In this document: piece by piece, positions 43,295 through 48,913 of the stretch
Layout of the letters: each line of letters starts with the position of its first letter
Numbering within the stretch: the first letter of the stretch is position 1
From: Amycolatopsis mongoliensis
GTDB lineage: Bacteria; Actinomycetota; Actinomycetes; Mycobacteriales; Pseudonocardiaceae
Reading direction: 5' to 3'
DNA length: 64,000 bases
Assembly (NCBI RefSeq): GCF_030285665.1
Contig: NZ_CP127295.1
Coordinates: 5,208,001-5,272,000 of the forward strand
Notes under the pieces: model-generated
Told to the model about the DNA's origin: nothing
What the model saw: only the letters and a program-made list of their open reading frames with translations
Database searches by the model: none
Translations under genes and position numbers: made by a program

Positions 43295-43616
43295 GGGAGA
43301 TCGGGCTCCGGCGCGCTCTGGCGAGCAGGCCGACTTTCGTGCGCGGTGCGGTGATCGCAGTCCGCGCGTTCACCGCCGTCCCGCGAAACGGCCGTCCTTC
43401 GCGCGGTGCGGGGCGCGGCCGCTCAGGCCGCGCAGTCCTGCGCACCGCGCGAAGGAACCTCGACCGGTGCAGCGGTGGACAGGGCCGGGCTTCCCGTCCA
43501 CCCACCGCACCGCGGTCGGGCTGGCTCCCGAATCTCGGCTCCCCACGGCCGAGATCATCCGATCCGGTGAACCTCCCGGGCCGTGCGATAGCCCGGAAGG
43601 CACCCGCCCAGGCTCG
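43295..43616. other. Intergenic stretch with a 60-bp palindrome
   Basis: No gene is supported in these 322 bp; reading frames lack composition and start signals. The only structure seen is the palindrome at 43396-43455 and a short related run near 43338-43372. It separates the plus-strand secreted gene from lexA, which ends at 43617 on the minus strand. Confidence 0.6.
43396..43455. repeat. 60-bp palindrome near lexA
   Basis: Outer arms CCTTCGCGCGGTGCG (43396-43410) and its complement (43441-43455), inner arms GCGCGGCC/GGCCGCGC (43413-43420 and 43426-43433). It lies in the convergent intergenic region and can serve as a bidirectional terminator. Its nested structure is like the one at 13663-13724. 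Confidence 0.75.
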
Positions 43617-44336
43617 TCAGAGCCGGCGCAAGACCGCCACGACCTTGCCGAGCACCGTCGCGTCGTCACCGGGGATCGGCTCGTACGCCTCGTTGTGCGG
43701 CATCAGCCAGATGTGGCCGCCCTTGCGCTTGAACGTCTTGACCGTCGCCTCGCCGTCGATCATCGCCGCGACGATCTCGCCGTTGTCGGCGTCCGGCTGC
43801 TGCCGGACCACGACCCAGTCGCCGTCGGTGATGGCCGCGTCGATCATCGAGTCACCCGTGACCTTCAGCAGGAACAGCTCGCCCTCGCCGACGATCTCCC
43901 GCGGCAGCGGGAACACGTCCTCGATGGCCTGCTCGGCCAGCACCGGGCCACCGGCGGCGATCCGGCCGACCAGCGGCACGTACGCCGCCTTCGGCATGAC
44001 CGGCTGCTGGTCCATCTCGATGCCCATGGGGTTGTCGTCGGTCGCCGAGAGCACGCCGACCGCGCGGGGACGGTTCGCGTCCCGGCGCAGGTACCCCTTG
44101 CGCTGCAGGGCACGCAGCTGGTGCGAGACCGACGACGTCGACGTCAGCCCCACCGCCTCGCCGATCTCCCGGACGCTCGGCGGGTAGCCGAACCGGCTCA
44201 CCCACGAGCGGATCACGTCGAGGACCTGCTGCTGGCGGACGGTGAGGGTCTCGTCCACGTCGTACACCTCGGGCATGGGGTGCACGCTGCCCCCGGGGGA
44301 CCCACTGGTCCTGCCCGCCTTGTTCTCCTTCGCCAC
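43617..44336 (-). CDS. lexA: LexA repressor
   Basis: 239 residues. N-terminal winged helix: [40 protein letters not shown]. The self-cleavage site is [10 protein letters not shown] (Ala-Gly); the catalytic Ser is in GDSMIDAAI and the Lys in [12 protein letters not shown]. The N-terminal 25 residues are a basic, less conserved extension. GTG start 44336 with GGGAGG upstream; ATG 44276 is an internal alternative. It represses SOS genes, including recA and probably itself through the boxes at 44469 and 44549. Confidence 0.97.
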
Positions 44337-44468
44337 TGCGTCGCCTCCCAGACGTTCGCTGCACGTATCGCGCGCCGGCCGCCGCCCGCCGGGTGCGGGC
44401 AGCCTCGCCGGCGGCATCTGCCCGGCAGATGCCCTGGTCACCGACGTTAGCCCCCGGGCACGACGATT

Positions 44469-44484
44469 TCAAACATCTGTTCGA
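44469..44484. promoter_or_regulatory. SOS box proximal to lexA
   Basis: TCAAACATCTGTTCGA fits TCGAAC-N4-GTTCGA with one mismatch. It lies about 133 bp upstream of the lexA start (minus strand) and is the lexA-proximal of the two boxes in the intergenic region shared with the LysM gene. Confidence 0.8.
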
Positions 44485-44508
44485 TCGACACGCCGTGTCC
44501 GCTCGATT

Positions 44509-44531
44509 TTGTCGGTGGTAGGTGGTAGACC
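44509..44531 (+). promoter_or_regulatory. PafBC-type promoter of the LysM gene
   Basis: TTGTCGGTG, eight bases, TAGACC. The first nine bases match the RecA-NDp consensus exactly and the spacer is right; the last base of the TANNNT element is C. It points toward the LysM gene about 100 bp away. The M. tuberculosis homologue Rv2719c is known to be DNA-damage inducible independently of RecA, which fits such a promoter. Confidence 0.65.
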
Positions 44532-44548
44532 TTCGCACGGGCGTTCGA

Positions 44549-44564
44549 TAGAACGCCTGTTCGA
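44549..44564. promoter_or_regulatory. SOS box proximal to the LysM gene
   Basis: TAGAACGCCTGTTCGA, one mismatch to the SOS box consensus. It overlaps a second palindrome, GCGTTC-GATA-GAACGC (44541-44556). It lies 66 bp before the LysM gene start and downstream of the PafBC-type promoter, so LexA could block that transcript. Confidence 0.78.
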
Positions 44565-44629
44565 CCTTGATCCACGGGCCGGCCCCGGCCCCGGAAACGG
44601 GCGGACACCAGGGTTTCGAGGAGGTTCGG

Positions 44630-45097
44630 ATGTCCATTCTGGCCGAACGCGGGCACGCCCGCCCGGCGACCCCGGTCCCGGCGCCACCCCGTCCCGTCCG
44701 CGTCCTGCGCGGGCGCCGCGGCGAGGTCCAGCGCCCGCCGACACGCGCGCGGGTCGTCGCGGGCCGCCGCCCGGCCGGTGCCCCGTGCGCGGCGCCCCGC
44801 CGGGTGCCGGTGCGGTGGCCGTGGCTCGCCGCGCTCGCCGTCGCGAGCTGCCTCGTGGTCACCGGGCTGGGACTCTTCGGCGGCGGCGCCGCGAACGCGC
44901 CGGTGCCGGGACGGACGGCCACGGTGTCGGTCGGCCAGGGCGACACCCTTTCTTCGCTGGCCGCGCGGTTCGCGCCGGACAGCGACGCGAGCGCGGTCGT
45001 CGCCCGGATCAAGGAGCTCAACCGCCTGGACGAGGCCGTCCTGGTGCCCGGGCTGCCGCTGACGGTCCCGGTCGCCGACGCCGTTCCTGCGCCGTGA
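44630..45097 (+). CDS. DNA-damage-induced LysM cell-division inhibitor (Rv2719c/YneA-like)
   Basis: 155 residues. A basic, Pro/Arg-rich cytoplasmic N-terminus (about 1-60), one transmembrane helix (WPWLAALAVASCLVVTGLGLF, about 63-83), then a LysM domain: TVSVGQGDTLSSLAARFA, followed by ELNRLDEAVLVPGLPLTVP. The architecture and position (divergent from lexA) match M. tuberculosis Rv2719c and Bacillus YneA, which delay cell division during DNA damage. Start ATG 44630 with GAGGAGG upstream. Two damage-response signals precede it. Confidence 0.88.
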   Translation: MSILAERGHARPATPVPAPPRPVRVLRGRRGEVQRPPTRARVVAGRRPAGAPCAAPRRVPVRWPWLAALAVASCLVVTGLGLFGGGAANAPVPGRTATVSVGQGDTLSSLAARFAPDSDASAVVARIKELNRLDEAVLVPGLPLTVPVADAVPAP

Positions 45098-45382
45098 CGC
45101 CGCCCCGGGGCTGACCGCCCACGGAAAATCACCCGCTCCGGTGAAACCGCCGATCGCTCGGCAAGCGTGTCCCGCCGGGCTCGTGGCGGCGGGTCCGCGG
45201 CGCTCGACGCGCAGGTTCCACTGCTCCACCAGGGTGACGCTGCCCCGGCTGCCGCGTCGCGGCGGTCCGGTTCCGGGCGAAGCGCGGCCCGGCCTTCGCA
45301 CGACGGCCCGCCGGACCTCACCCGGGCGAGTTCCGCACCGGCCGCGCCGCTTGCGCCCGCCCCCTTCGAGTTCTACGCTCGC

Positions 45383-45398
45383 CCGCTATATGTAGTAG
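45383..45398. promoter_or_regulatory. NrdR box upstream of nrdR
   Basis: The core CTATATGTAG (45386-45395) fits the NrdR consensus CWATATATWG with one mismatch. It lies 173 bp before nrdR. NrdR boxes usually occur in pairs; a half-like copy TGTAG at 45408-45412 is the only other candidate. Autoregulation of the nrdR-nrdJ operon by NrdR is known in Streptomyces. Confidence 0.55.
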
Positions 45399-45413
45399 TT
45401 ACACCGCTGTAGT

Positions 45414-45486
45414 TGGTCCACAGGTTGGGGTAGGCTGGGCAGCAGTTGTCCACAGCTGGTCGGCTCTTACCCACCGGATGTCCACA
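45414..45486 (+). promoter_or_regulatory. Three DnaA-box-like 9-mers at exact 32-bp spacing
   Basis: TGGTCCACA at 45414-45422, TTGTCCACA at 45446-45454 and ATGTCCACA at 45478-45486. The middle one is the preferred actinomycete DnaA box; the others differ by one or two bases in the first three positions. The three TCCACA cores are exactly 32 bp apart, three helical turns, so they face the same side of the DNA. DnaA controls ribonucleotide reductase genes in E. coli; the analogous role here is inferred. Confidence 0.6.
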
Positions 45487-45570
45487 GAACGATCACCAGG
45501 TGCAGGGGTGCATGGTGGCCGCGGGGACGTCGACCGGGGCGGCCGGCGATGAGGGGAAGGTGATCGGCGG

Positions 45571-46065
45571 ATGAGGTGCCCGTTCTGCCGGCATGCGGAC
45601 TCCCGGGTCGTCGACTCCCGAGAGGTGGATGAAGGCCAGGCGATCCGCAGGCGGCGCTCGTGCGCGTCCTGCGGACGGCGGTTCACGACGTCGGAGACGA
45701 TGGTGCTCGCCGTCGTCAAGCGGTCCGGGGTCACCGAACAGTTCAGCCGGGACAAGGTGGTGAGCGGCGTCCGCCGCGCCTGCCAGGGCAGGCCGGTCGA
45801 CGACGACGCGCTGCAGCAGCTCGCGCAGCGCGTGGAGGAGTCGATCCGCTCCGCCGGGCTGGCGGAGATCCCGAGTCACGAGGTCGGCCTGGCCATCCTG
45901 GGCCCGCTGCGTGAGCTCGACGGGGTCGCCTACCTCCGGTTCGCCAGTGTCTACCGCTCCTTCTCTTCGGTCGAGGACTTCGAGAAGGAGATAGCCGATC
46001 TTCGTGAGGCCATGGCGGGTACTGCTGCCCCGGAGGAGAGCGATCAGCGCGAAGACGGCGATTGA
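45571..46065 (+). CDS. nrdR: NrdR, ribonucleotide reductase regulator
   Basis: 164 residues. Zinc ribbon [11 protein letters not shown] ... [15 protein letters not shown] (Cys3, 6, 31, 34), then the ATP-cone domain (about 46-136) with [17 protein letters not shown]. NrdR binds ATP/dATP and represses ribonucleotide reductase genes. It precedes nrdJ by 31 bp. Start ATG 45571. The last 20 residues are acidic. Confidence 0.97.
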
Positions 46066-46096
46066 CCGTCCCGCTGCGGGAGTGAGGGTTCGACCG

Positions 46097-48913
46097 ATGA
46101 CCGAAACCGTGGGAACCGGGGCCGGCACGGCCGCCGGCAAGAAGAGCAAGGCGGCCGGCGGGCTGAGCGTGAAGCGCGTCTTCACCACCGAGGGGAAGCA
46201 CCCCTATGACCAGGTGACCTGGGAACAGCGCGACGTCGTGATGACGAACTGGCGCGACGGCTCGGTCAACTTCGAGCAGCGTGGCGTGGAGTTCCCCGAC
46301 TTCTGGTCGGTCAACGCCACCAACATCGTCACCAGCAAGTACTTCCGCGGCGCCGTCGGCAGCCCGCAGCGCGAGCGCAGCCTCAAGCAGCTCATCGACC
46401 GCGTCGTGAAGACCTACGTCGCGGCCGCGCGCGACCACGGTTACTTCGCCACGCCGCAGGACCTCGAGATCTTCGAGCACGAGCTCACCTGGATGCTGCT
46501 GCACCAGGTCTTCAGCTTCAACTCCCCGGTCTGGTTCAACGTCGGCACGGCGTCGAAGCAGCAGGTCTCGGCGTGCTTCATCCTCGCCGTCGACGACACC
46601 ATGGAGTCGATCCTCAACTGGTACCGCGAGGAGGGCCTGATCTTCAAGGGCGGCTCCGGCGCCGGCCTGAACCTCTCCCGCATCCGCTCCTCGAAGGAGC
46701 TGCTGACCTCCGGCGGCACCGCCTCCGGGCCGGTCTCGTTCATGCGCGGCGCCGACGCCTCCGCGGGCACCATCAAGTCCGGCGGGGCCACCCGGCGCGC
46801 GGCGAAGATGGTCGTGCTCGACATCGACCACCCGGACATCGAGGAGTTCGTCCAGACGAAGGCGCGCGAAGAGGAGAAGATCAAGGTCCTGCGCGACGCG
46901 GGGTTCGACATGGACCTCTCCGGCGCGGACATCTCCTCGGTGCAGTACCAGAACGCGAACAACTCGGTCCGCGTGTCCGACGAGTTCATGCAGGCGGTCG
47001 AGAACGGCACCGACTTCGGCCTGCGCGCCCGGCTCACCGGCGAGGTGATCGACCGGACCGACGCGAAGAAGCTGTTCCGCAGCGTCGCGCAGGCCGCGTG
47101 GGAGTGCGCCGACCCCGGCATCCAGTACGACGGCACGATCAACGACTGGCACACCTGCCCCGAATCCGGCCGGATCACCGCGTCGAACCCGTGCAGCGAG
47201 TACATGCACCTCGACAACTCGAGCTGCAACCTGGCTTCGCTGAACCTGCTCAAGTTCGTCACGCCCGAGGGCACCTTCGACGCGCCGCTGTTCGCGCGCG
47301 CCGTCGAGTTCGTCATCACGGCGATGGACGTCTCGATCTGCTTCGCGGACTTCCCGACCGAGCCGATCGCCGACACCACGCGGAAGTTCCGCCAGCTCGG
47401 CATCGGCTACGCGAACCTCGGCGCGCTGCTGATGGCGCTGGGCCACGCGTACGACTCCGACGGCGGTCGCGCGCTCGCGGCGGCGATCACGTCGCTGATG
47501 ACCGGCGTCTCCTACCGGCGTTCGGCCGAGCTGGCCCGGGCGGTCGGCGCGTACGAGGGCTACGCGCGCAACGCCGAATCGCACCAGCGCGTGATGCGCA
47601 AGCACGCGGCGGCGAACGAGCTCGTCCGCACCTACCACGCCAACGACGCCGCGGTCCGCGCACTGGCGACGGAGGAGTGGAAGACGGGCATCGACATCGG
47701 GACGAAGCACGGCTGGCGCAACGCGCAGGCGTCGGTGCTCGCGCCCACCGGCACCATCGGCTTCATGATGGACTGCGACACCACCGGGATCGAGCCGGAC
47801 TTCTCGCTCGTGAAGTTCAAGAAGCTCGTCGGCGGCGGCTCGATGCAGATCGTCAACCAGACGGTGCCGCGCGCGCTCGAGGCGCTGGGCTACCAGGCCG
47901 AGCAGGTCGAGGCGATCGTCGAGTTCGTGGCGCAGAACGGCCACGTCGTCGACGCGCCGGGGCTGCGCCCGGAGCACTACGAGGTGTTCGACTGCGCGGT
48001 CGGCGAGCGTTCGATCGCGCCGATGGGCCACGTCCGGATGATGGCCGCGGTGCAGCCGTTCCTCTCCGGCGCCATCTCGAAGACGGTCAACATGCCGGAG
48101 TCGGCGACGGTCGAAGAGGTCGAGGAGATCTACTTCCAGGGCTGGAAGCTCGGCCTCAAGGCGCTGGCGATCTACCGCGACAACTGCAAGGTCGGCCAGC
48201 CGCTGTCGACGGGCAAGAAGGAGAAGGCGGCCGCCGAACCGGAGAAGGTCGTCGAGTACCGGCCGGTGCGCAAGCGCCTGCCGAAGAAGCGCCCGAGCCA
48301 GACGGTGTCGTTCACCGTCGGCGGTGCGGAGGGCTACCTGACGGCGGGTTCGTACCCGGACGACGGTCTCGGCGAGATCTTCGTCAAGCTGGGCAAGCAG
48401 GGCTCGACGCTGGCCGGCGTGATGGACGCTTTCTCGATGTCGATCTCGGTGGGCCTGCAGCACGGTATCCCGCTCGAGTTCTACGTCTCGAAGTTCTCGA
48501 ACCTGCGCTTCGAGCCGGCCGGCATGACCGACGACCCGGACATCCGGATCGCGACGAGCGTGATGGACTACCTGTTCCGCCGCCTGGCGCTGGACTACCT
48601 GCCGTACGAGAAGCGTTCGCAGCTGGGCATCCTGTCGGCGGACGAGCGGTCGGCGGAGGTGGAGGCCACCTACGGCGGTGGCGCCGGCGTCGACATCGAG
48701 GCACTGCGCTCCACAGTGGACTCCTCGCCGGAGCCGCACGCGGACGAGCCGGAGCACCGGCACCGCGAAGCCCAGACGACGACGGAGCTGATGGAGCTGC
48801 GCCTCGGCAAGGCGGCGGACGCCCCGCTGTGCATGACGTGCGGAACGAAGATGCGCCCGGCAGGCTCGTGCTACGCCTGCGAAGGCTGCGGCGCGACGTC
48901 CGGCTGCAGCTGA
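46097..48913 (+). CDS. nrdJ: B12-dependent (class II) ribonucleotide reductase
   Basis: 938 residues. It reduces ribonucleotides using adenosylcobalamin and needs no oxygen or separate radical subunit. The substrate region has NSPVWFNVG and SACFILAVDDTMESI; the loop is FKGGSGAGLNLSRIRS; the active site CSEYMHLDNSSCNLASLNLLKF has the N-x-C-x-E radical motif; late in the protein APTGTIGFMMDCDTTGIEPDF. The C-terminus has a zinc-ribbon-like end (CMTCGTKM ... CYACEGCGATSGCS). ATG 46097 lies 31 bp after nrdR; no B12 riboswitch is seen. Confidence 0.97.
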   Translation: MTETVGTGAGTAAGKKSKAAGGLSVKRVFTTEGKHPYDQVTWEQRDVVMTNWRDGSVNFEQRGVEFPDFWSVNATNIVTSKYFRGAVGSPQRERSLKQLIDRVVKTYVAAARDHGYFATPQDLEIFEHELTWMLLHQVFSFNSPVWFNVGTASKQQVSACFILAVDDTMESILNWYREEGLIFKGGSGAGLNLSRIRSSKELLTSGGTASGPVSFMRGADASAGTIKSGGATRRAAKMVVLDIDHPDIEEFVQTKAREEEKIKVLRDAGFDMDLSGADISSVQYQNANNSVRVSDEFMQAVENGTDFGLRARLTGEVIDRTDAKKLFRSVAQAAWECADPGIQYDGTINDWHTCPESGRITASNPCSEYMHLDNSSCNLASLNLLKFVTPEGTFDAPLFARAVEFVITAMDVSICFADFPTEPIADTTRKFRQLGIGYANLGALLMALGHAYDSDGGRALAAAITSLMTGVSYRRSAELARAVGAYEGYARNAESHQRVMRKHAAANELVRTYHANDAAVRALATEEWKTGIDIGTKHGWRNAQASVLAPTGTIGFMMDCDTTGIEPDFSLVKFKKLVGGGSMQIVNQTVPRALEALGYQAEQVEAIVEFVAQNGHVVDAPGLRPEHYEVFDCAVGERSIAPMGHVRMMAAVQPFLSGAISKTVNMPESATVEEVEEIYFQGWKLGLKALAIYRDNCKVGQPLSTGKKEKAAAEPEKVVEYRPVRKRLPKKRPSQTVSFTVGGAEGYLTAGSYPDDGLGEIFVKLGKQGSTLAGVMDAFSMSISVGLQHGIPLEFYVSKFSNLRFEPAGMTDDPDIRIATSVMDYLFRRLALDYLPYEKRSQLGILSADERSAEVEATYGGGAGVDIEALRSTVDSSPEPHADEPEHRHREAQTTTELMELRLGKAADAPLCMTCGTKMRPAGSCYACEGCGATSGCS

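Follow-up and report, generated by a model that had tools for sequence, protein, structure and literature searches.

Tetramers of NrdR loaded with dATP and ATP have been reported to bind pairs of boxes three or, less well, four helical turns apart and to repress (PMC12051234). In the closest described system, the nrdRJ operon of Streptomyces coelicolor, each box carries a critical C and G nine bases apart, 31 bp separate the two boxes, and inversion of the C/G pairs costs NrdR about 50-fold or more (PMC9110341). A link between reductase genes and the replication initiator has been described for Escherichia coli nrdAB, which is under DnaA control and is repressed by DnaA-ATP at high level, with a similar proposal for the reductase genes of Bacillus and Caulobacter (PMC8203912). 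Extra regulators at an nrdR promoter are known in principle, since in Streptomyces venezuelae WhiA is reported to bind upstream of nrdR, with nrdR raised in a whiA mutant (PMC3781837). Promoter-level matching of dNTP supply to initiation is understood mainly in E. coli; in the open-licence PMC literature, we found no paper on DnaA boxes at actinomycete nrdR or nrdJ, and no DnaA ChIP or footprint for Amycolatopsis.

Here we analyzed the region upstream of nrdR-nrdJ in a 64,000-nucleotide stretch of Amycolatopsis mongoliensis DNA (hereafter the window). Our preferred reading, to which we assign a probability of roughly two in three, is a composite operator, i.e., a NrdR box pair with an adjoining array of putative DnaA boxes in register with the second NrdR box (Table 1). 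In the S. coelicolor nrdRJ operator, a pair of NrdR boxes with C..G cores likewise spans the start region of the same operon at a distance of about three turns (PMC9110341), but the spacing is 32 bp here rather than 31 bp, and a phased DnaA-type array follows box 2 here. In addition, box 2 here reads CCACA(A/G)GTTG, whereas presumed Streptomyces loci have CCAGAAGTTG. NrdR and DnaA boxes also occur together at E. coli nrdAB, including a double DnaA box with a 3-bp gap; however, these are class I genes with three DnaA boxes in the promoter, while the present operon is class II and its array lies downstream, in register with a NrdR box (PMC12176259, PMC8203912, PMC11317965). More than two sites at near whole-turn spacing are likewise described for S. 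pneumoniae nrdHEF (three boxes) and E. coli nrdAB (boxes 0, 1 and 2), although those sites, as described, are all NrdR-type, unlike here (PMC12051234, PMC12176259). DnaA control of E. coli nrd genes is already known; what would be new is a composite, phased NrdR/DnaA operator on class II nrdRJ.

Table 1 Features of the nrdRJ operon and its upstream region (window positions)
Feature	Position	Strand	Details
P1, probable promoter	45351..45379	+	-35 TTGCGC 45351-45356, 17-bp spacer, -10 TACGCT 45374-45379
NrdR box 1 (predicted)	45383..45398	+	core CTATATGTAG 45386-45395; C-N8-G core, AT-rich palindromic centre; overlaps inferred P1 start
Inverted repeat TACA-N4-TGTA	45400..45411	+	midway between the NrdR boxes
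P2, possible second promoter	45408..45436	+	-35-like TGTAGT 45408-45413, 17-bp spacer, -10 TAGGCT 45431-45436
NrdR box 2 (predicted)	45415..45430	+	core CCACAGGTTG 45418-45427; exactly 32 bp from box 1; holds first TCCACA
Putative DnaA box (motif 2)	45446..45454	+	consensus TTGTCCACA; exact TTRTCCACA
Weak DnaA-like slot	45467..45475	+	TTACCCACC; 11 bp before next box (2-bp gap)
Putative DnaA box (motif 3)	45478..45486	+	ATGTCCACA; one mismatch to TTRTCCACA
Possible weak DnaA slot	45490..45498	+	CGATCACCA; 12 bp past ATGTCCACA; carries conserved GATCACCA element
nrdR, dNTP-sensing repressor	45571..46065	+	TIGR00244, 161.3 bits, cut-off 124.65
nrdJ, class II (B12-dependent) ribonucleotide reductase	46097..48913	+	NF005122, 1610.3 bits, cut-off 859

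The NrdR protein is 100% identical to that of Amycolatopsis sp. NBRC 101858, its best named match; for nrdJ, the profile score refers to a translation from 46094, and the start codon was picked by eye. lexA lies upstream of the nrdR region on the opposite strand, and an upstream open reading frame weakly resembles the LysM-type cell-division suppressor YneA, with a score below the cut-off of that model. An Rfam scan of 43500-47000 gave no match at E values up to 1, and we accordingly rejected a leader riboswitch or another known RNA.

The original prediction of three TCCACA motifs at exact 32-bp steps was borne out: they begin at 45417, 45449 and 45481 and form the only exact-32 TCCACA triple on either strand of the window. 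Random placement at the observed TCCACA frequency would yield ~1.5e-6 such triples, and ~1.4e-4 equal-spacing triples of any step between 10 and 100 bp. The window contains 29 TCCACA, compared to 18.1 +/- 4.0 in 100 shuffles, one of which reached 29. The three 32-bp-spaced motifs are thus confirmed as real and far from chance, and we regard their conservation as stronger evidence than these window statistics. The middle motif sits inside TTGTCCACA and, as predicted, matches a full DnaA box in sequence.

To examine the motifs across relatives, we gathered 227 nrdR loci, with upstream DNA from 33 of 60 genus genomes, 90 of 120 family genomes (30 as loci plus 60) and 30 of 118 class genomes, chosen as best matches; the nrdR start was not found in L214 and L216, which left 225 upstream regions to search. 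A NrdR box pair was present in 217 of these, with a box spacing of 32 bp in 201 and 31 bp in 16 within a search limited to 31-33 bp, and shared 8-mers were used to reduce the 217 loci to 111 representatives. The three-turn rule for NrdR box pairs (PMC12051234) is matched by the spacing of box centres (31-32 bp, 217 loci). The C and G required in each box (PMC9110341) lie nine bases apart at 45386/45395 and 45418/45427 in the window and occur in both boxes of all 111 representatives, a count that the search imposes for box 1 and that its weights favour for box 2. From its second base on, the first TCCACA belongs to the CCACAGGTTG core of box 2, whose upstream partner, box 1, was absent from the original list of motifs. 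Since box 2 is paired with box 1 at this 32-bp (or 31-bp) distance in 217 of 225 regions, and CCAGAAGTTG occupies its place in L215, L219, L220 and L227, motif 1 is the left half of a predicted NrdR box 2; these four loci belong to one genus, and our guess is Streptomyces. The view that a single protein occupies three equivalent sites falls with this assignment. For motifs 2 and 3, DnaA, one of the regulators originally proposed, remains the leading candidate, while motif 1 belongs to the predicted NrdR site.

No NrdR box pair passing the score was found upstream of nrdR in the remaining eight loci (L180, L187 and L199-L204), and a similar scorer found no NrdR boxes in a 7-kb stretch around the class I nrdAB operon of the window's genome. 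L199-L204 are six genomes of the same order from one other family, all without a score-passing pair at nrdR.

Next, we evaluated conservation of the motifs by genus, in a tally of 75 of 80 loci from which four metagenome bins and L134 were omitted. All three TCCACA motifs were kept in 28 of 41 named Amycolatopsis. Individually, TCCACA was retained in box 2 (motif 1) in 30 of the 41, motif 2 occurred as TTRTCCACA (R = A/G) in 40, and motif 3 as TCCACA in 39, located 62-66 bp from box 2. Of the 13 exceptions, ten belong to a single group that includes A. regifaucium and A. coloradensis and has TCCATA in box 2. All three motifs were also found in 8/8 named Prauserella, 1/6 Saccharomonospora and 0/3 Haloechinothrix. 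The distance between TCCACA motifs varies mostly by whole turns (31-34, 42-44, 52-55 and 63-66 bp). Given these genus tallies, motif and spacing look selected across a large part of the family, not all of it, i.e., the conservation on which the original prediction had been staked was found.

This whole-turn variation was evaluated for all TCCAC sites downstream of box 2. Within 90 bp, the 111 non-redundant promoters contained 122 sites, of which 109 deviated by no more than 1.5 bp from a multiple of 10.67 bp, compared to an expected 28%; the period was fitted on the same data and the sites share ancestry. When identical layouts were collapsed, 65 of 77 sites were in phase, and the controls gave 1/11 for upstream TCCAC and 5/16 for reverse-strand GTGGA. 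The 13 off-phase sites lie at 14, 23 (three), 34, 48, 50, 55 (four), 66 and 68 bp. Period scores were 0.84 for TCCAC (n = 122) and, for some permuted words, 0.86 for CACCT (n = 6), 0.70 for CATCC (n = 24) and 0.64 for CCATC (n = 15); these high-scoring permuted words favour a period near 10.9, and CATCC and CCATC partly overlap the TCCAC motif. As judged from these layouts, the conserved quantity is the number of whole helical turns from the predicted NrdR box 2, not 32 bp, so that the phasing originally proposed holds across relatives while the strict 32-bp spacing was too narrow. TCCAC was absent from the 90 bp downstream in 50 of the 111 representatives, and the four presumed Streptomyces loci have none just downstream of box 2; the putative array is therefore not essential for nrdRJ control.

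A tentative extension of the composite operator, which we consider less likely than not, is that box 2 has a dual use, its TCCACA being slot zero of a DnaA filament on a continuous phased NrdR/DnaA operator. Motif 1 is preceded by C or T in 20 of the 111 representatives (4 of the 44 with two or more downstream sites), compared to 3 of 109 in-phase downstream sites, and because this difference is modest, motif 1 may double as a DnaA site. TCCACA is found in box 2 of 37/39 representatives with at least two in-phase sites vs 43/72 of the others (Fisher p = 4e-5); these sequences are related and not independent, and we therefore take the association as a hint of dual use. If dual use were true, the NrdR tetramer as a dATP reporter and DnaA-ATP as a reporter of initiation potential would either compete or assemble together on one face of the DNA, and the dNTP pool and replication timing would be integrated at the class II reductase.

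Several features point to DnaA as the protein recognizing motifs 2 and 3. TTRTCCACA occupies the motif-2 slot in 28 of 111 representatives, and among loci this slot alternates between TTGTCCACA and TTATCCACA, both listed as high-affinity DnaA boxes (PMC4285127). As in TTRTCCACA, the base ahead of TCCAC is A or G in 106 of the 109 downstream sites in phase, and TT stands in front of that base in 50 of the 109. At the weak slot beginning at 45467, CCCACCGG is largely conserved, and by-eye alignment shows TTGTCCACC, TTATCCACC or TTGTCCACG there in Thermocrispum, Actinophytocola, Kibdelosporangium and Actinokineospora. The CGATCACCA slot is strongly conserved but only a weak match to the DnaA box, and in the A. 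regifaucium/A. coloradensis group (L025, L071, L072, L074 and L080) it is replaced by CGATCCACA. Other genera carry arrays of TTGTCCACC, CCATCCACG, TTATCCACA and similar boxes at 11-bp steps, and in L035 an extra box appears at one turn with the terminal motif shifted by 10 bp. Neighbouring steps of 11-12 bp correspond to the gaps of 2-3 bp within the double DnaA boxes of E. coli, one of which lies at nrdA (PMC11317965).

Motifs 2 and 3 in the window also satisfy the loose NrdR rule C-N8-G, and we therefore weighed an operator of four NrdR boxes at exact 32-bp steps (45386, 45418, 45450 and 45482), all with C and G nine bases apart, on which two NrdR tetramers would extend repression into the leader. 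NrdR pairs three or four turns apart (PMC12051234) would account for the 31-33 and 42-44 bp spacing classes, and the G is conserved at motif 3, although there it lies within the GATCACCA element. This arrangement is weakened by motif 2, where the G is kept in 20 of the 28 representatives with TTRTCCACA and replaced by other bases in 8, when inversion of C/G pairs is so costly to NrdR in S. coelicolor (PMC9110341). Steps of 11 bp, sites at 21 and 53 bp and the A/G before TCCAC are all foreign to NrdR, and the CAG/CAA centre poorly matches the AT-rich NrdR centre. We consider four NrdR boxes unlikely; the DnaA-box reading fits motifs 2 and 3 best, and we rate DnaA well above NrdR there, with dual binding possible.

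Equally unlikely is that the putative DnaA boxes serve to titrate DnaA or to reset it, as E. coli datA or DARS do, without regulating nrdRJ, the leader being a mere location. TTRTCCACA is indeed common in the genome (131 sites vs 21 for the reversed pattern) and unevenly distributed: 100 of the 131 sites lie up to 5.40 Mb of the 10.8 Mb, the half that holds dnaA (at 2.37 Mb), and 31 in the other half, i.e., about a threefold difference. However, the whole-turn register with the predicted NrdR box 2 survives insertions and deletions, and the array is found in the nrdRJ leader of many genera.

We compared the array with the origin of the same genome, where oriC carries eight tandem DnaA-type boxes at steps of 11, 11, 11, 12, 11, 11 and 11 bp. 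The nrdR array has the same tandem 11-12 bp steps and relaxed first two bases, but oriC has eight boxes in a row, unlike the nrdR array, and its step is less uniform in relatives: across 29 family oriC regions (30 dnaA loci minus L268, which ends 3 bases past dnaA), the DnaA-box period is blurred, with a best fit of 11.25 bp and a strength of 0.55. Exact TTRTCCACA is absent from the dnaA-dnaN stretch of this genome, so the oriC boxes are more relaxed. A 15-mer, AGTTGTCCACAGCTG, occurs both at motif 2 and in the dnaA promoter of this genome. This shared 15-mer and the 11-12 bp step shared with oriC make it improbable, more so than either preceding alternative, that another regulator with a TTRTCCACA-like site binds the motifs, even though close TTRTCCACA pairs among the first 100 of 131 sites are mostly arranged differently (8 on the same strand at 18-19 bp and 9 facing each other at 21-22 bp) and recA promoters often carry an 18-19 bp pair.

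Returning to the composite operator, we located candidate promoters relative to the predicted boxes. With its -10 just upstream of box 1, P1 is inferred to start at ~45386, at about box 1. A scan for a TTGACA-like hexamer (at least 3 matches), 16-19 bp and TANNNT recovered a sigma70-like P1 pattern ahead of box 1 in 103 of the 111 representatives; in 90 of them, 5-7 bases separate the -10 from the C of box 1. P2 has NrdR box 2 in its spacer. A TANNNT at its -10 position, 12-14 bp past the C of box 2, is found in 22 of 25 representatives of the window's 3+3-turn layout and 14 of the other 86, and we keep P2 as a possible promoter because of the former; its -35, TGTAGT, is a poor match (2/6), and a promoter scan that needs 3/6 in the -35, and is thus blind to TGTAGT, gave 20/111 at scattered positions. 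The first putative DnaA box would fall a few bases past the P2 start. Among the 25 representatives of the 3+3-turn layout, the inverted repeat between the NrdR boxes hardly varies, and as TACA-N3-5-TGTA it occurs in 59 of 98 representatives with 32-bp box spacing and 1 of 13 with 31-bp; it may be an extra operator or promoter part.

In the proposed mechanism, NrdR boxes 32 bp apart would cover the P1 start and the next three turns of DNA, and a NrdR tetramer loaded with dATP and ATP would bind both and repress. The DnaA array would begin three turns past the box 2 core with one consensus box, followed by weak, good and weak sites at 11-12 bp steps, and a short DnaA oligomer on it, in register with box 2, would add replication-linked control. 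When DnaA-ATP is high, DnaA on the leader array would hinder nrdRJ transcription from the same face as NrdR, and the common phase would allow the two proteins to act jointly or to compete at box 2. Binding by NrdR and DnaA, a mostly repressive effect of downstream DnaA (probably DnaA-ATP) and action from one face are what we infer from sequence, the direction of the DnaA effect being the least certain step. dNTP supply may thereby be tied to the start of chromosome copying in Amycolatopsis and relatives, with a ~110-bp element of antibiotic-producing actinomycetes placing a dNTP sensor and, probably, the initiator on a common helical ruler. Natural one-turn insertions offer ready-made comparison alleles, and the layout suggests that annotation of actinomycete NrdR boxes should check for adjoining DnaA arrays.

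Within the leader, GATCACC (within 45490-45498) is complementary to the nrdR ribosome-binding site GGTGATC (within 45557-45566), also in several related loci. In several Amycolatopsis-type loci, the pairing of GATCACCA with the ribosome site extends over 8 bp. L126, L132, L133, L138 and L152, however, have the element with short pairing, and other genera retain it without preserving the pairing. Ribosome-site windows with and without GATCACCA showed no clear difference (Mann-Whitney p = 0.057). A point in favour of such pairing is that GGTG(A/G)TC-like sites occurred in 20 of 40 loci with the element, a set that includes some DnaA-box runs, and in 8 of 71 without it. With the element kept where pairing is short, we did not accept an anti-Shine-Dalgarno role as its general explanation.

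A separate observation concerns recA. The window holds one other exact TTGTCCACA (1684-1692), in the promoter region (1661-1711) upstream of recA; the SOS box CGAACAGGTGTTCG starts 23 bp before it, and CGATCCACA follows 19 bp after it. In a survey of 46 genomes, 22 of the 30 recA loci examined had TTRTCCACA within 220 bp upstream, and 16 of the 30 had two box-like sites 18-19 bp apart; on this comparison, a DnaA-like pair at recA promoters looks conserved.
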